64,000 nucleotides of DNA from positions 434,001-498,000 of the forward strand of contig NZ_CP102250.1 in assembly GCF_025144995.1 (NCBI RefSeq), given 5' to 3'. Each line of letters begins with the position of its first letter. Positions within the stretch are counted from its first letter, which is position 1. This DNA comes from Alistipes indistinctus YIT 12060 (GTDB lineage: Bacteria; Bacteroidota; Bacteroidia; Bacteroidales; Rikenellaceae). A model generated the notes under the pieces. It did not search any database and was not told where the DNA came from. It saw nothing but the letters and a program-made list of their open reading frames with translations. The position numbers and the translations under genes were made by a program. Positions 51,548-58,304 of this stretch are shown here, in pieces.

Positions 51548-52941
51548 CCGGAAAGCGGGATACTATCATCGCCGTCGCCTCCGGCACCGGAGGCGCGATT
51601 GCGCTGATCCGCCTGAGCGGTCCGACAGCCATCGCCATCGGCGACCGGATTTTCACCAGCGTGTCCGGCTCTCCTCTCAGCAGATCTAAAGGTTTTACCG
51701 TCCACTTCGGCCATATCCGCAACGAAGCGGATGAGATCATCGACGACGTTCTGGTGTCGCTCTTTCGCGCCCCCCGCTCCTATACCGGTGAGGACATGCT
51801 CGAAATCTCCTGCCACGGTTCGACCTTCATCCAACGAGAGATTTTACGTCTTTGCATCCGGGAAGGAGCCCGCATGGCGCAGGGAGGGGAATTCACACTC
51901 AAAGCCTTTTTAGCCGGGAAGATGGATTTATCCCAGGCAGAGGCGGTGGCCGATATCATCGCATCAGACAGTCGGGCCGCATTGACGCTGGCCACCCGCC
52001 AGATCCGCGGCGGTTATTCGAAAGAGTTTACAGACCTTCGCCAACAATTACTCGAATTGACCTCCCTGCTGGAGCTCGAGTTGGATTTCAGCGAAGAAGA
52101 CGTGGAGTTCGCTGACCGGACTCGTTTATCGGCGATGCTCACAGAAATAGAACACCGGATCAGCTCACTGAGCGACTCTTTCCGGTTGGGCAACATCCTG
52201 AAAAACGGCGTTCCCGTCGCCATTGTCGGCAGCCCGAACGTCGGCAAATCCACGCTGCTCAACGCCCTGCTCAATGAAGAACGGGCACTCGTATCGGATA
52301 TCGCAGGCACTACACGAGACCTGATCGAGGAGACGATCAACATCCAGGGTGTCACTTTCCGGTTTATCGATACGGCGGGCATCCGGGATACGGCCGACCC
52401 GTTGGAGCATATGGGCATCGAACGAACATTGCAGCGCGTACGACAGGCTGCAATTATCCTGCTGATGGTCGACGCCAACGATCCATCCGAGCAAATTGAA
52501 GCGCAACTACAATCTATACCGGTCGGGGAGGGGCAGCAAATCGCACTCATCCTGAATAAATCCGACAAAGCAACTGAGGAACAGATCGCGTTATCAAAGA
52601 AAACCTTACAGCAAAAAAACGCCATTCCTGTTTTGTCTATTTCAGCCAAGCAAAAAGGCAACTTACAAGCACTAACGTCATTGCTGTACGATTCCGTTCA
52701 TGCCGATGAGTCGCTCCGTTCCGGACAACTGATTGTTTCGAACGCCCGGCACCACGAAGCATTAGAAGCCGCACGCGGAGCCACGCACCGGGCTCAGAAT
52801 GGACTTGCAGGAGGCATTTCCGGAGACCTGCTCGCTCAGGACATCCGCGAAGTTCTGCACCATTTGGGCACCATTACCGGTGAAATCACGTCGCAGGACA
52901 TACTGAATTCCATCTTTTCCAAATTCTGCATCGGCAAATAG
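51544..52941 (+). CDS. mnmE: tRNA uridine-5-carboxymethylaminomethyl modification GTPase MnmE
   Basis: The 465-residue protein starts at ATG 51544, overlapping the previous stop by 4 bases; the frame is open far upstream but only as a shadow. It has the N-terminal folate-binding domain (TIIAVASGTGGAIALIRLSG), a G domain with G1 GSPNVGKST at 229-237, G3 DTAGIRD, and G4 NKSDKA, and a C-terminal helical part ending in the conserved FCIGK. With MnmG it modifies the wobble uridine of several tRNAs. The gene is intact to its last codon, and accessory DNA starts directly downstream. Confidence 0.97.
   Translation: MTGKRDTIIAVASGTGGAIALIRLSGPTAIAIGDRIFTSVSGSPLSRSKGFTVHFGHIRNEADEIIDDVLVSLFRAPRSYTGEDMLEISCHGSTFIQREILRLCIREGARMAQGGEFTLKAFLAGKMDLSQAEAVADIIASDSRAALTLATRQIRGGYSKEFTDLRQQLLELTSLLELELDFSEEDVEFADRTRLSAMLTEIEHRISSLSDSFRLGNILKNGVPVAIVGSPNVGKSTLLNALLNEERALVSDIAGTTRDLIEETINIQGVTFRFIDTAGIRDTADPLEHMGIERTLQRVRQAAIILLMVDANDPSEQIEAQLQSIPVGEGQQIALILNKSDKATEEQIALSKKTLQQKNAIPVLSISAKQKGNLQALTSLLYDSVHADESLRSGQLIVSNARHHEALEAARGATHRAQNGLAGGISGDLLAQDIREVLHHLGTITGEITSQDILNSIFSKFCIGK
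52924..52941 (+). other. Possible attachment-site core at the mnmE 3' end
   Basis: The last 18 bases of mnmE encode Phe-Cys-Ile-Gly-Lys-stop. In SGI1-type islands the equivalent 18 bases of trmE/thdF are the integration core. Here accessory genes begin right after. Only one copy is in the window, so this is inference. Confidence 0.4.
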
Positions 52942-52982
52942 GAGCCGGTAAACAACGATCAACAACACTCAGTAACGATTAC

Positions 52983-53007
52983 TTAGGCGCTCATTCAGAG
53001 CGCCTAA
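52983..53007. terminator. Hairpin 41 bases after mnmE
   Basis: A 10-bp perfect stem, TTAGGCGCTC (52983-52992) with GAGCGCCTAA (52998-53007), closes a 5-base loop. No T tract follows, so it may end the mnmE transcript inefficiently, or be a recombinase-arm structure. Confidence 0.45.
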
Positions 53008-53033
53008 CAGCGTTTGCACTTTATCGCCGCTGC

Positions 53034-53049
53034 GATTGCATATGCAATC
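53034..53049. repeat. Perfect 16-bp palindrome near the element end
   Basis: GATTGCAT followed by ATGCAATC has perfect dyad symmetry. It sits 160 bases before the five-repeat HTH gene, and is a candidate operator or excisionase site. It shares the TTGCAT half-site with the inverted repeat at 55408-55450. Confidence 0.6.
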
Positions 53050-53208
53050 TTGCGTACTTTTTTCACCCCCGTTTCTCCCCCGAGCCCCAATGTCTGCAGG
53101 GGTACTCGGTTCCGTCTCCAAGGTTCTGGAAAATTGAGACGAGCCGATACGAGGTGCGACGTAGAGGTCGGAGCAGCAACACAATCGGGAACCTTTATCG
53201 GAGCCATT

Positions 53209-54282
53209 ATGAGTAGTAACCTACGAATCGAGCGCATTTGCGAGTTCTGCGGCCGACGGTTTATCGCAAAGACCACTGTAACAAGATTTTGCTCCCACAC
53301 ATGTTCTCAGCGCCATTACAAGAGAGATCACCGCCGACGAGATATTGGGCAAAATCTCCCGGAGTTTGCCACCTCTCCGGCTCCCATACAACCTATTCTA
53401 ATGTCAAAAGAGTATATGGGCTGTCAGGAGGTCGCGAATATGATGGGAATAAGCCGAGCAACGGTTCATCGCTATTGCGCGACCGGAAAGTTCCGGTGTG
53501 TGCGGCTCAACCGGAAAATCTTTATCCGCAAAAAGGATATCGATGCCCTGTTCGACAATGCAGAACCATACGAAGTAATGCCTGCAAACAGAGCCCCGAT
53601 CACCGAATTTTATACGATGCAAGAAATTACGGAAAAATTCGAAGTATCCGAATCCACTGTATATAATATGGCAATTGCAAAACAAATTCCCAAGGTACTC
53701 AGCCAGGGAAAAACCATTTACAGCAAAAAGCATATCGACCGCCATTTTGCCCGCAAACTCCCCGATCCGCAGGTTGCCGAATGGTACACCGTGGAAGAGA
53801 TTCGGGAGAAATACAACATGAGCGTCTCAGCGGTCTACTCCTTCACCTCGGAGTACGGCATTCCCCGTAAGAAGAGCCGCGGCAAGACCTACTACTCGAA
53901 ATCACATACGGATCAGCACCTCAAAATGCGCCGTCCCGATCCCAAGATCAAAGAGTGGTACAGCATGAACGACATCGTGGCACTCTACAACTTCGCACCG
54001 GGTTATGTGTCGAATCTAATCTATAAAAATCCGATCCCGAAAATCCGGCGCGGCAACAAAGGCTATTACTCCAAGGAACATTTCGACCGGCTTGTCCGCG
54101 AGAAGCAGCTCGTGCCGGAGTACTACACCGTCGAGGAAGCCATGGCAAAATACAACCTGACGCGGGACACACTCTACCATCACATCCGGTATAACAACGT
54201 ACCGAAGATCAAAGATGGGCGCTACATCAAAATATCAAAGCCGGAACTGGACGCCATTTTCGAACAACCAATCACAATTTAA
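53209..54282 (+). CDS. Cys4-finger protein with five tandem excisionase-like HTH repeats
   Basis: The 357-residue protein begins with a Cys-rich finger (Cys11, Cys14, Cys28, Cys32: C-x2-C-x13-C-x3-C). Five HTH_17-like repeats follow, starting near residues 68, 133, 191, 249 and 304. Each opens with E-[WFY]-[YM]-[TSG]-x-x-E/D-[IV] and ends with a Lys/Tyr-rich wing of the type YYSKxHxD. Single repeats are the size of a MerR/Xis winged helix. It lies 12 bases before the integrase and is probably its excisionase or directionality partner. Multi-repeat forms are unusual. The ATG at 53209 follows no strong RBS. Confidence 0.75.
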   Translation: MSSNLRIERICEFCGRRFIAKTTVTRFCSHTCSQRHYKRDHRRRDIGQNLPEFATSPAPIQPILMSKEYMGCQEVANMMGISRATVHRYCATGKFRCVRLNRKIFIRKKDIDALFDNAEPYEVMPANRAPITEFYTMQEITEKFEVSESTVYNMAIAKQIPKVLSQGKTIYSKKHIDRHFARKLPDPQVAEWYTVEEIREKYNMSVSAVYSFTSEYGIPRKKSRGKTYYSKSHTDQHLKMRRPDPKIKEWYSMNDIVALYNFAPGYVSNLIYKNPIPKIRRGNKGYYSKEHFDRLVREKQLVPEYYTVEEAMAKYNLTRDTLYHHIRYNNVPKIKDGRYIKISKPELDAIFEQPITI

Positions 54283-54294
54283 TACATAAAAACG

Positions 54295-55392
54295 ATGGGA
54301 ACAAAAGTAACCTTACGTCACAAGCCGATCACCAACGGACGCGAATCGCTCTACCTCGATTTCTACCCGCCGATCCGCTGCAAAGCGACCATGAAACTCG
54401 TTCACAAGGAGTATTTAGGGATTTACATCTACCAGAATCCACAGAACGAAATTCAGCGCGACTACAACCGGGAAATGCTCTACAAAGCCGAAGCGATCCG
54501 ATCGGTGAGGGTGCAGTCGTGCATCAACGAAGAGTACGGTTTTCTGGACAAGCACAAACTCAAAGCCGACTTTCTCGATTTCTTCCGAAGCATCGCCCTA
54601 AAGAAAGACCCCAAATGGCGGATGGTCTACAAACATTTCGAAAAATTCTGTGGCGGCAAGTGTTCGTTCGGGGAGGTGACGGTCGATCTGTGCCGCCGCT
54701 TTCGCGACTACCTGATGACCACGCGCCAACTCAAATTCACCAACAAGAAGATGAAGTGCAATTCCGCCGCAGGATACTTCTCGACCTTTCGCGCCCTGCT
54801 GAAGATCGCCTACCGCGACAAGCTGATCCGCGAGAACGTCAACGATTTTCTTGAAAAAATCGAGTACGAGGACACCCGACGCGAGTTCCTGACACTGGAC
54901 GAACTGAAGCGGCTGGCCGATACGCCCTGCAACATTCCGGTTCTCCGACACGCGGCGATCTTCTCCTGCTTCACAGGGCTTCGGATCAGCGATATACTCC
55001 AACTCGAATGGAAACATATCTCTCAAGCTTCTGACGGCGGTTGGTGGATGCGCATCCGCACCGAAAAGACAGAAACCGAGGCGACGCTGCCCATCAGCGA
55101 CGAAGCGTTGGAATACTGCGGCCAACCAGGTACGGGCAAAGTATTTAAAGGGCTGGAACGTTCGATGACCCAACATCCACTACAGAAATGGATTCGCACA
55201 GCAGGGATAGAACGCAACATCACCTTCCATTGCTTCCGCCACACGTTCGCCACACTTCAGATAGCATTAGGCACGGACATCTTTACCGTCAGCAAAATGC
55301 TCACCCATAAAAATGTCTCGACGACGCAGATTTATGCAGAGCTGGTCAACGAAAAGAAGCGCGAGTCGGCGAATCGGATTTCACTGAAGTAA
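54295..55392 (+). CDS. Tyrosine site-specific integrase
   Basis: The 365-residue protein has an N-terminal arm-binding region (KVTLRHKPITNGRESLYLDFYPPIR), a core-binding SAM-like domain (about residues 90-190), and the catalytic domain with all expected residues: Arg230 (TGLRISD), His312-x-x-Arg315 (HCFRHTF), His338 (THKN), and nucleophile Tyr347 (TTQIYAEL). It is the likely integrase of the element and is cotranscribed with the five-repeat HTH gene, 12 bases upstream. It resembles the integrases of Bacteroidetes elements. A perfect inverted repeat follows. Confidence 0.93.
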   Translation: MGTKVTLRHKPITNGRESLYLDFYPPIRCKATMKLVHKEYLGIYIYQNPQNEIQRDYNREMLYKAEAIRSVRVQSCINEEYGFLDKHKLKADFLDFFRSIALKKDPKWRMVYKHFEKFCGGKCSFGEVTVDLCRRFRDYLMTTRQLKFTNKKMKCNSAAGYFSTFRALLKIAYRDKLIRENVNDFLEKIEYEDTRREFLTLDELKRLADTPCNIPVLRHAAIFSCFTGLRISDILQLEWKHISQASDGGWWMRIRTEKTETEATLPISDEALEYCGQPGTGKVFKGLERSMTQHPLQKWIRTAGIERNITFHCFRHTFATLQIALGTDIFTVSKMLTHKNVSTTQIYAELVNEKKRESANRISLK

Positions 55393-55407
55393 TTTGTTAT
55401 TATACGA

Positions 55408-55450
55408 ATTTTTGCATCGTTATAACACAATTGTATAACGATGCAAAAAT
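55408..55450. repeat. Perfect 17-bp inverted repeat downstream of the integrase
   Basis: Arms 55408-55424 and 55434-55450 are exact complements around a 9-base spacer and contain TTTTTGCATCG. The A/T runs lie inside the arms, and neither outer flank has the U tract of an intrinsic terminator. This favours a protein-binding or recombination site, though a transcript hairpin remains possible. Confidence 0.75.
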
Positions 55451-55513
55451 CGAATAAATGATTTTTGTAAACATTTCTGTAGCCGCCCTCTATTTGATTA
55501 TAAAGGGTTTTCT

Positions 55514-55876
55514 ATGGAACAGACGGTACTCACATTCGAAAAATTGCCCGAAGCGGTGGCTTATCTGGTTACTGAAGTTAACAACATTCGCAGGCTGTTA
55601 GAGCAGCAGCGACAGCCATTGCCATCCAAACGCCTCCCGGTCGGAATCGAAGATGCCTGCCGCGTGGTTATGAAAGCCCGGTCGACGGTTTACACCCTGG
55701 TTCGAAAAGGGCTAATCCCGTGCTGTAAAAATGGTAATCGACTCTATTTTTATGAAGATGAGCTGCTCGCATGGATCGCCAATGGCAAGAAGAAAAGTAT
55801 CGCCGAGACCAAAGCCGAGATCGAAGCACAAATGCAACAGTCGGTCCGGCATAAACCTGCTGGACGAAATTTTTGA
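55514..55876 (+). CDS. Small helix-turn-helix (excisionase/HTH_17-like) protein
   Basis: The 120-residue protein has an N-terminal helical, probably coiled-coil part (residues 1-40), then an HTH_17-type domain (about 43-92). The domain reads VGIEDACRVVMKARSTVYTLVRKGLIPCCKNGNRLYF with a wing and ELLAWI. It ends with a Lys/Glu-rich tail. Such proteins act as excisionases or regulators of mobile elements. It lies after the 17-bp inverted repeat and before the half-length recombinase, so it may control one of these. The specific target is unknown. Confidence 0.82.
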   Translation: MEQTVLTFEKLPEAVAYLVTEVNNIRRLLEQQRQPLPSKRLPVGIEDACRVVMKARSTVYTLVRKGLIPCCKNGNRLYFYEDELLAWIANGKKKSIAETKAEIEAQMQQSVRHKPAGRNF

Positions 55877-55981: not shown

Positions 55982-56623
55982 ATGAATAAAAATGCACTGC
56001 GGGAGATCGGCGAAGAAGCCGCTCCCGTAAATTTCGGGGATCCGTACACATTAATACCTTATTCCTGGATTATCCGCATCCGTGAAATGAACCGGAGCGA
56101 ACTCTCAAGCAAAGAACAACTATATCTCGACCTGTTCCTCTTCAGTACCTATACCGGAGGTACGACTATGACCGAAATGGCATTTCTGAAAAAAGATGCT
56201 ATCTCGAACAGGACGCTTATCTGTGACAGAATCATTACTTCAAAAACTGCAATTATTCCGCTGGTGGACCGAACGAAGGCAATTATTAAAAAATACCAAA
56301 TGAAATGTTTCGGGGAATATTTGCTTCCCGTTTTCACCCACAAGCACCAAACACCGGATCAGCAGGCCGGCAGGATCAAAAGGATATCAGAACAAACAAA
56401 CCGTACGCTTCGGAAAGTTTGCGCTCAATTGGGAATCGAAGCCGAAATTACACTGGGTTCCACTCGGAAGATTTTCATCACACACATGATTGATTCTCGT
56501 ATTCCATATGAACATATTGCCGAGTATGTGGGATGCACTATCGACACCGTCATTCGCCATCATGAACAATTCTACCAAGCAGTACAAGAAGCATGGATAC
56601 AATATTCTCCAGATAAGAAATGA
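55982..56623 (+). CDS. Half-length tyrosine-recombinase relative lacking catalytic Tyr
   Basis: The 213-residue protein aligns by eye with the catalytic half of the recombinase at 57027. Shared stretches are YLDLFLFS-x-Y-x-GG, GRIKRI-x-E/E-x-x-N-x-TL-x-K/R-x-C, and I-x-H/RMID. It has no arm-binding or core-binding domains. The usual first Arg is replaced (Gly59-Gly60), Arg162 is kept, and the Tyr position falls in IRHHEQF (191-197) with no Tyr. It is therefore probably not active alone. It may be a decayed recombinase or a regulatory subunit. The reading frame is intact. Confidence 0.7.
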   Translation: MNKNALREIGEEAAPVNFGDPYTLIPYSWIIRIREMNRSELSSKEQLYLDLFLFSTYTGGTTMTEMAFLKKDAISNRTLICDRIITSKTAIIPLVDRTKAIIKKYQMKCFGEYLLPVFTHKHQTPDQQAGRIKRISEQTNRTLRKVCAQLGIEAEITLGSTRKIFITHMIDSRIPYEHIAEYVGCTIDTVIRHHEQFYQAVQEAWIQYSPDKK

Positions 56624-57026: not shown

Positions 57027-58304
57027 ATGTTTACAGTCAACATCAAAGGACGGAGGGATCCGAGAAACATCGACCTCGTCAAACTCGATCTGATCTTTTA
57101 CAAGCGCGGTTATGCACGCGTTTCGAAAGTGCTCCACATTACAGGCCTATACCGGGAGTGGGACTCTAAGAGCCAATCTTTCACCGGCGCGGATACTTCC
57201 GAAAAGAACATGTTGCTCCGTCATGAGCGATTGAAATATCTGAAGGTCGCCGAAAAGTGGGAATATCAAGGTAAGGACTGGATTCCCGTCGAGTTGTCCC
57301 ACTATTACGACGACGATCCGAGGATTCGCAATCGTTATATCACCGTCGCGGAGATGCTCGACGCCCTAACGGAAAAGACCGCCACACGGGAGCGGTACAA
57401 AAACGGGCTGATACTTACCAGCGAACCGACTGCGAAGAAATACCGTTACCTGAAGAGTTCGCTCGAACGGTTTGTCCGGAGCAAGTATCGTCGGGATTTC
57501 TCGAAATATCGTTTCCGGGACATCACCGAACAGTTCCTGTTAGACTATACGCTATGGACGCAGCTTTGCGGAGGGAAGCAGGGAAACGAAGGCGGTATCC
57601 GGGAGAAACTGCGCAAACTGCGAGCGGTCTGTCTTTATGCCAAAGAGAACGGAGTCTACAACGTTAACCTGAACGCTTTCCGCCCCCTGCGCGAGAAACT
57701 CAAATCGCGGCTGGTCACGCCCAAAGGAGTATCGCCCGAAATCATCCGCATCATTGAGACCGTCGACCGGACGCTACTCGGCAAAAAAGAGTCGTTCTAC
57801 CTCGACCTATTTCTGTTCAGTTATTACGCCGGCGGAATGTCGGCCATCGACGTCTGCCTGCTGACACGCGATCGTATTAAAGGAGATATGATTATCTACG
57901 ACCGAACAAAGTTCGACAAGCAGGCACGGGTGATCCTGACAGACAAAGCAATCGAGATTATTGAGCGCTACCGTAACGAGGCCTATATGAATTATGTATT
58001 TCCAACGATCAAGCGCTGCAATCCGCCCCAGGCAAAACTCTACGGACGCATCAAGCGGATCAACGAGAAAGTCAACCAAACCCTGAAGAAGATTTGTAAA
58101 CTCTCCGACATCGACCAGCGAATTACCTGGAGTACAGCCCGCAGCAGTTACATCTCCCGCATGATCGACGAAGGATTCCATCCACTCCAAGTAGCTGAAC
58201 TCGCTGGTAATTCACCTCAAACAATTTACAGGCATTATTACACAATCTCCAATAAAGAGAAAATGAAAGAGAAGATGAATCAGGCGTTCAACTGTAATGG
58301 GTAA
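57027..58304 (+). CDS. Tyrosine recombinase lacking the canonical first Arg
   Basis: The 425-residue protein has an arm-DNA-binding domain (about residues 1-95), a SAM-like core-binding domain (about 105-215), and a catalytic domain (from about 240). At the usual Arg-I site it reads YYAGGMSAIDV (Gly269-Gly270), so Arg is missing. Arg372 (WSTARSS) and a Tyr401 (TIYRHYY) remain, and the second His is Asn395. IntDOT of CTnDOT also lacks Arg-I yet is active, so function is possible. It lies just before the RM operon and may be an invertase or integrase of the island. Confidence 0.82.
   Translation: MFTVNIKGRRDPRNIDLVKLDLIFYKRGYARVSKVLHITGLYREWDSKSQSFTGADTSEKNMLLRHERLKYLKVAEKWEYQGKDWIPVELSHYYDDDPRIRNRYITVAEMLDALTEKTATRERYKNGLILTSEPTAKKYRYLKSSLERFVRSKYRRDFSKYRFRDITEQFLLDYTLWTQLCGGKQGNEGGIREKLRKLRAVCLYAKENGVYNVNLNAFRPLREKLKSRLVTPKGVSPEIIRIIETVDRTLLGKKESFYLDLFLFSYYAGGMSAIDVCLLTRDRIKGDMIIYDRTKFDKQARVILTDKAIEIIERYRNEAYMNYVFPTIKRCNPPQAKLYGRIKRINEKVNQTLKKICKLSDIDQRITWSTARSSYISRMIDEGFHPLQVAELAGNSPQTIYRHYYTISNKEKMKEKMNQAFNCNG

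Follow-up and report, generated by a model that had tools for sequence, protein, structure and literature searches.

The gene at 53209-54282 of the window, that is, of the whole 64,000-nucleotide stretch of DNA analysed, encodes a TnpA-family protein composed of a Cys4 finger and five winged-helix units. Read from the sequences of this protein and its relatives, arrays of 10-bp repeats precede the genes, the repeats covary with the first unit of the protein, array and first unit are exchanged between elements as a cassette, and the island of the window sits at the 3' end of mnmE. The comparison indicates that only unit 1 matches the array repeats, apparently via a simple two-residue code. We consider it likely that TnpA has two parts, a unit 1 head that acts on a private array and a tail that acts on a shared target.

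The tnpA island

The features of the left end of the island are as follows.
52924..52941, + strand: att core and left island junction; 3' end of mnmE, encoding FCIGK-stop
52946..52985, + strand: second array with a 10-bp period, 4 x 10 bp, just inside the att core, from the period-10 signal
52986..53004, + strand: GC-rich hairpin adjoining the near-core array, from the sequence
53135..53184, + strand: predicted head-reading array of five 10-bp repeats, TGAGACGAGC / CGATACGAGG / TGCGACGTAG / AGGTCGGAGC / AGCAACACAA
53209..54282, + strand: TnpA-family protein with a Cys4 finger (residues 11-32), head unit 1 (68-117) and tail units 2-5
53455..53484, + strand: recognition helix of unit 1, residues 83-92, helix from the AlphaFold2 model
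54295..55392, + strand: tyrosine integrase with Arm-DNA-bind_5, SAM_5 and Phage_integrase domains
55514..55876, + strand: small HTH_17 protein (HTH_17 44.7 bits), candidate excisionase

On the evidence of its junction, the island is integrated at the 3' end of mnmE (also known as trmE). A copy in Alistipes montrealensis is 97.5% identical in DNA across 52911-55876, with 66% identity in the body of mnmE, and the integrase is 98.9% identical to a copy in locus L002. Copies of the att core with three mismatches each recur downstream of the window, at the places in its genome that correspond to window coordinates 66487 and 74587; the chance expectation for such matches is 0.07 per 64 kb. The cores at 52924 and at the equivalent of 66487 thus delimit a tnpA island of about 13.6 kb, which extends beyond the end of the window and contains, by eye, type I restriction-modification-like genes. 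Two more tyrosine recombinase reading frames, at 55982-56623 (without the N-terminal part) and 57027-58304, adjoin genes of this type and are possible hsdS inversion enzymes.

A second island with an mnmE-type core lies in tandem, at the own-genome positions equal to window 66487-74587 (L070:2487-10587). Its integrase is 36% identical to that of the first island, its relaxase-like and reverse-transcriptase-like reading frames were named by eye, and no tnpA match was found within it. At its end, a further imperfect copy of the att core stands directly behind the first. The genome as a whole contains no second tnpA match at E <= 0.001.

SGI1 and its relatives, which use the same site, are gammaproteobacterial, and we know of no multi-unit TnpA in them. 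They integrate at the 3' end of trmE (PMC8409611), and the SGI1-type integrase has been placed in the IntCTnDOT subgroup (PMC8138268).

The TnpA-family protein

The gene is intact and encodes 357 residues from an ATG start. The N-terminal finger has the spacing C11-x2-C14-x13-C28-x3-C32. Pfam HTH_17 exceeds its cutoff in five stretches of the protein (132 bits, E 8.8e-39), the TIGR01764 'excise' profile matches three stretches (58.1 bits, cutoff 28.8), and a purpose-built profile places the five units at residues 68-117, 133-181, 191-239, 249-297 and 304-352. The stop codon of tnpA ends at 54282 and the integrase ATG lies at 54295, with 12 bases between them. The reading frame, HTH_17 and the unit profile agree on a five-unit chain behind a C-x2-C-x13-C-x3-C finger, 12 bp before an integrase, as the initial annotation had described.

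The same annotation took the repeats for winged helices, and an AlphaFold2 model, run on an alignment of four sequences, predicts the finger and five winged helices of the order E-H-H-E-E-H (mean pLDDT 71.6). The pTM of 0.27 leaves the mutual placement of the units undefined. The five Foldseek matches with E < 0.001, to UFL1 complexes with TM of 0.11-0.15, are probably chance strings of winged helices.

A joint alignment was made with TnpA of Tn4555, which is 27.2% identical to the window protein over 84% of the query (E 3e-35) and is so annotated on two of the 14 matching plasmid records. This similarity assigns the window protein to the Tn4555 TnpA family. In both elements the TnpA gene lies directly upstream of a tyrosine integrase, and both proteins combine a Cys4 finger with HTH units. 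Tn4555 TnpA has four units, whereas the window protein has five, and the insertion site of Tn4555 differs from the mnmE 3' end used by the window island. The gene order in a Tn4555 copy (L065) is tnpA, integrase, tnpC, excisionase, ATPase. Unlike Tn4555, which carries tnpC between integrase and excisionase genes, the window has no reading frame of at least 60 residues on the + strand within 55392-55514.

The initial annotation called the repeats excisionase-like. The excisionase-type winged-helix units, recognised by TIGR01764, support that name, and direct repeats one turn apart, found before tnpA as described below, are typical of such factors in the published accounts consulted. An excisionase function is doubtful, since the prototype of the family, Tn4555 TnpA, is a targeting gene and a separate small HTH_17 gene exists in the window. 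The product of 55514-55876 shares 33.9% identity with the protein annotated as excisionase in the Tn4555 copy, which makes it improbable that TnpA is the excisionase. In addition, tnpA of Tn4555 affects target choice: according to a review, insertion of Tn4555 without tnpA, the gene upstream of its integrase, is essentially random. We therefore regard an excisionase role of TnpA as unlikely. The review's account of Tn4555 TnpA, in the portion consulted, makes no mention of an array or a code.

Relatives and their linkage to integrases

Of the genomes sampled, 83 of 393 from the order Bacteroidales and 65 of 268 from the family of the window contain matches at E <= 0.001, short or weak ones included. 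From 202 reading frames, 156 unique relatives were retained; those with an identical last 130 bp upstream, or with less than 130 bp upstream, were dropped. The relatives consist of a finger and one to seven units, a few being truncated by contig ends: 106 have four units, 16 three, ten two, ten one, eight five and six seven. In the records consulted, members of the family are annotated only as 'helix-turn-helix domain-containing protein', 'hypothetical protein' or TnpA. The viral_contigs set gave seven pattern matches, with no relative among them.

An integrase lies downstream of 131 of the 156; 22 others have less than 600 bp of downstream sequence, and three lack an integrase. The linkage to integrases assumed in the initial annotation thus extends to other genomes. 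An att core with at most two mismatches is found upstream of 136 of the 156. The gene mnmE is directly upstream of 113, another 24 have an mnmE-type core without adjoining mnmE, and 19 have neither; the last include the Tn4555 group, plasmid copies and a two-unit group. Loci L066, L067 and L017, which are related to mnmE-type elements, have their insertion outside mnmE, in two cases in a plasmid. The two plasmid copies have a degenerate core with four mismatches near the usual distance, which possibly marks secondary sites.

An array of 10-bp repeats before tnpA

An alignment of 19 left ends contains tandem repeats of 10 bp a short way upstream of tnpA, and their sequence differs from element to element. 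Over the final 130 bp upstream of the gene in the 136 relatives with at least three units, the best 30-bp self-match at a shift of 10 averages 19.4, compared with 11.8 (sd 2.0) in dinucleotide shuffles, and the self-matches at shifts 7-9 and 11-14 are 11.5-13.5. An earlier test, which used plain shuffles and the 300 bp upstream of 66 loci, gave 20.3 versus 13.2 (sd 1.7) at shift 10, and mixes both arrays of the left end, the best match often being the near-core one, as in the window. An array finder accepted an array before 132 of the 136 relatives and in 2.5% of dinucleotide shuffles; a score of 8 was reached by 125 of the relatives and 0.1% of the shuffles. The arrays mostly start 45-105 bp before the start codon. 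A direct-site array near the element end, as the initial annotation had anticipated, is therefore present at one-turn, 10-bp spacing both at 53135-53184 and before the 132 relatives.

The finder favours A at position 5, C or T at position 6 and likeness at positions 2-7, so that it builds in both the constancy of positions 5-6 and some of the likeness within arrays. Within-array likeness is absent at position 7, which is scored, and present at position 1, which is not. The search length was set by hand after the upstream sequences had been seen, at 130 bp for three to four units, 230 bp for five, and 200 bp for seven units and for nine named loci. The choice of arrays was blind to the protein sequence, of which only the number of units entered, via the search length. 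L115, L169, L198 and L199 did not pass the finder and were dropped; 129 arrays had a clean phase, and 85 or 71 elements were left after near-identical ones had been removed.

In the window, the finder took the first three repeats with a score of 7.4, and a strict counter likewise found three. Read by eye, position 2 is G in all five repeats, as the code described below predicts for Arg at column 20, and position 4 is G in only two of five, against the G predicted for Ala at column 16. The window array is worn at position 4. Its first 27 bases occur at a single place in the genome at up to three mismatches. Among nine scanned loci longer than 8 kb, six contain no array copies beyond their own, and in L065, L066 and L067 there are one or two additional, weak TTGAC matches.

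The two-unit proteins of L120, L121, L122, L124, L130 and L216, with Asp or Glu at column 16, have no evident array before the gene. In the seven-unit proteins of L116, L117 and L162-L165, the units are grouped 4+3 around a long linker, and the upstream repeats fall, by eye, into two spaced groups.

Covariation of unit 1 with the repeats

Across 85 non-redundant elements, the similarity of the repeats correlates with the identity of unit 1 (Mantel r = 0.305, p = 0.0005); for units 2, 3 and last the correlations are 0.04, 0.06 and 0.02 (p = 0.12, 0.06 and 0.27). The strongest mutual information, found in unit 1, links repeat position 2 to column 20 (z = 20.8) and position 4 to column 16 (z = 17.5). 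Units 2, 3 and last do not exceed z values of 5.3, 7.2 and 6.9, and the two pairings are outside the best twelve of each of these units. Because the sequences share ancestry, neither pair counts nor z values amount to independent tests; the shuffles ignore relatedness, which makes the other units, used here as the control, the fair yardstick.

Columns 16 and 20 correspond in the window protein to Ala84 and Arg88 of the unit 1 recognition helix, which the covariation marks as putative specificity residues. Among non-redundant cases, Arg20 occurs with G at position 2 in 31/31, Asn, Lys, Gly, Thr or Tyr20 with T in 46/47, and Asp20 with C in 2/2. At position 4, G accompanies Ala16 (13/13) and Gln16 (16/18), C accompanies Arg16 (11/12) and Lys16 (5/5), and T accompanies Pro16 (9/9) and Met16 (5/5); Thr16 is mixed (A 6, G 3, T 3), and other residues at column 16 are rare. 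Position 1 is T in 22 of 23 elements with Arg at column 20, versus 15 of 48 others.

In leave-one-out prediction on 71 heads, trained on heads at most 50% identical, position 2 was predicted in 61 of 62 cases (majority baseline 38) and position 4 in 52 of 63 (baseline 23), with nine and eight heads, respectively, lacking a rule. Shuffled arrays reached at most 0.69 and 0.49 at a 60% identity limit. When restricted to strong arrays (55 heads), the prediction was correct in 44/44 for position 2 (baseline 24) and 40/47 for position 4 (baseline 19). For one-unit proteins, several of which are near-duplicates, both predicted bases fit in 7/10 by script; in L209, L211, L033 and L035 the finder chose a shifted phase, and the other phase fits by eye and was not counted. 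The array of Tn4555 itself, GTTGACAAGG/GTTTACAACC/GTTTACGACA/AGCGACAATA, has T at position 2 in three of four repeats and G at position 4 in two of four; its consensus is TTGAC, as in other heads of type SRQYIYKL.

The initial annotation proposed that a single TnpA lays its five units along five sites, measuring and bending the element end. The window does have five units and five 10-bp blocks, and the seven-unit proteins, grouped 4+3, have their repeats by eye in two groups. Four-unit proteins have four repeats in 88 of 99 arrays, which, taken alone, would fit one unit per repeat and would mislead. Over 62 four-unit elements, every one of the four repeats covaries with unit 1 (z 8.9-15.9), whereas units 2-4 reach at most 3.8 and track none. 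Furthermore, tails that are 100% identical occur with unlike arrays, and repeat numbers depart from unit numbers: the arrays of one-unit relatives run to five or six repeats (the script counted six at most), and of the 16 three-unit relatives, two of which are truncated at a contig end, 11 have four repeats and 5 have five. A one-chain ruler is therefore very improbable. TALE-like readers, which this arrangement resembles, use one unit per repeat; such reading was rejected for the array just before tnpA, as only unit 1 covaries, and does so with all four repeats.

Exchange of head and array between elements

When tails are at least 80% and heads at most 60% identical, the array type (positions 2-4) differs in 229 of 231 pairs; in control pairs with both parts at least 80% identical, it is unlike in 22 of 166. 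Conversely, elements with identical head helices and tails at most 50% identical have a common array type in 46 of 52 pairs, and those with identical head helices and different unit numbers in 15 of 16. These pairs are not independent of one another. In L048 and L054, the tails are 100% identical (rounded, over the unit columns), the heads are 27% identical, and the arrays are of the TGAGAC and TTGAC types. In strong exchanges, the identity is 90% in the 110 bp upstream of the array, 67% in the finger and 37% in the linker that follows unit 1; these values come from the first 80 of the 91 pairs. From these segment identities we infer that array, finger and unit 1 move as one cassette.

The position of the array between att core and integrase operon is that expected of integrase arm sites, and an arm-site array unrelated to TnpA would explain its presence there. 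The elements L041 and L076 of one genome speak against this, as their integrases are 100% identical and their TnpA heads and arrays are unlike. The bases of the repeats are, moreover, predicted by unit 1 of TnpA, and arrays follow identical heads across unit numbers. We find the arm-site explanation scarcely credible.

Elements residing in the same genome do not avoid like arrays: among 17 pairs, from which identical upstream copies had been dropped beforehand, two are alike (11.8%), against a background of 10.3%. Selection for orthogonality is not visible in these 17 pairs, a sample too small to be informative.

The near-core array and the tail

The left end contains a second array, just inside the att core. 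The period-10 signal of near-core regions averages 13.98 of 25, compared with 9.18 (sd 2.24) after shuffling, and exceeds the shuffled mean by more than 2 sd in 71 of 113 relatives with at least three units and in two of ten with one unit. This array is co-inherited with the tail and integrase and not with unit 1. It correlates with units 2-4 (r about 0.6, 66 elements) and with the integrase (0.75, 40 elements). The tail units, the integrase or the small HTH protein could read it, and the correlations hardly separate tail from integrase. Unit-by-unit reading by the tail gave no clear mapping in corrected mutual information over 59 four-unit elements.

The hairpin at 52986-53004, which adjoins the near-core array, appears terminator-like from its sequence, and similar hairpins are found by eye at the equivalent place in many relatives. 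Between the near-core and head arrays, at 53065-53082, lie two C-rich direct repeats, CACCCCC and CTCCCCC, at a distance of 11 bp, which are possible arm sites of the integrase. Many relatives have, by eye, GTACC pairs at the equivalent place.

Resemblance to winged helices that bind DNA in series

The best overlay of unit 1 is with BldC (6ama_A, Z 8.2, rmsd 2.3; 6amk_B, Z 8.1, rmsd 1.0 over 50 residues), followed by Pukovnik Xis (Z 7.5; sequence match to 4j2n, E 6e-5). Z values near 8 can reflect a common arrangement, according to the warning of the tool; both BldC and Xis are winged helices that bind DNA serially. Lys26 and Arg30 of BldC, the second and sixth residues of its helix 25-34, make base contacts in the major groove, and Arg30 contacts the guanine within a 5'-YpG step (PMC5859096). 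In unit 1, columns 16 and 20 (residues 84 and 88) hold the equivalent second and sixth places of helix 83-92 and match Lys26 and Arg30; the offset of the overlay, with residue 68 of unit 1 on BldC residue 10, agrees. The T that precedes position 2 in 22 of the 23 elements with Arg at column 20 parallels the YpG step. BldC is described as binding head-to-tail on direct repeats.

BldC of Streptomyces differs from the window protein in being a single 68-residue winged-helix developmental regulator with neither finger nor tail, located off mobile elements. The free-standing winged helix of the BldC family is not found in the window protein, in which the finger and five units form one chain. Nor does it have the small single-domain build of Xis and other recombination directionality factors: Pukovnik Xis, Apl and RdfS have one winged helix each. 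In the published descriptions consulted, Apl recognises direct repeats spaced by one turn, and RdfS occupies DNA near att and at its own promoter with roughly one molecule every 10 bp; RdfS has no consensus motif, and Apl monomers are of low specificity. The TnpA heads, by their covariation, differ from RdfS and Apl in following a sharp code at two positions.

Proposed function of TnpA

In the two-part reading that we consider likely, the window protein would be a TnpA-type accessory protein of an integrative element that enters the 3' end of mnmE. The head, formed by the finger and winged helix 1, would bind the private 10-bp array that lies behind the att core and ahead of the start codon of its own gene. 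One head per repeat would bring about four to six TnpA molecules side by side, as in Xis and BldC, and two head residues one helix turn apart would determine which bases stand at positions 2 and 4 of the repeat. The tail, formed by units 2-5 and conserved with the integrase, probably acts on the near-core array, the mnmE att site or the integrase. Swapping of head and array as a cassette would give near-identical elements different DNA addresses. Binding of the head to its array may control integration, the tnpA-int operon, or both.

TnpA might instead act mainly as a repressor of its own tnpA-int operon, with the diversity of heads defining immunity groups, as in phage repressors. The arrays, lying between the core and the start codon, would be in the leader of the operon. 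Promoter-like TANNTTTG words number 22 in 71 elements against 12.4 expected, the promoters being predicted, and 16 of the 22 words lie 50-125 bp before the array start. The winged-helix factors RdfS and Apl are reported both to regulate promoters and to act in recombination. Against repression as the main role, the review reports that deletion of tnpA from Tn4555 alters target choice, and co-resident elements do not avoid like arrays. We regard this repressor function as a serious possibility, if somewhat short of probable; it is compatible with the two-part reading.

We propose, more tentatively than the two-part reading itself, that array, finger and unit 1 constitute a natural specificity cassette that elements with one att site and almost the same integrase exchange by recombination, so that each keeps a private address, and that defines a self-recognition or immunity group, while the tail acts on a common target and the code predicts the addresses. 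In the portions consulted of the literature on Tn4555 TnpA and its targeting, on attachment at mnmE and on recognition helices, we found no description of the array, the code or the exchange; an earlier report of a TnpA site is possible.

The logic of such a cassette is comparable to that of phage repressor and operator immunity, or to the exchange of target-recognition domains in restriction enzymes. If correct, the findings would provide a readable protein-DNA code for a widespread family annotated, in the records consulted, only generically or as TnpA, and would propose a recognition target on its own element for the targeting protein of the Tn4555 type. The two-residue code could predict the DNA address of any family member, and a specificity module of mobile elements would be exchanged as a cassette. 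Self-recognition between elements that share one att site would become directly testable.
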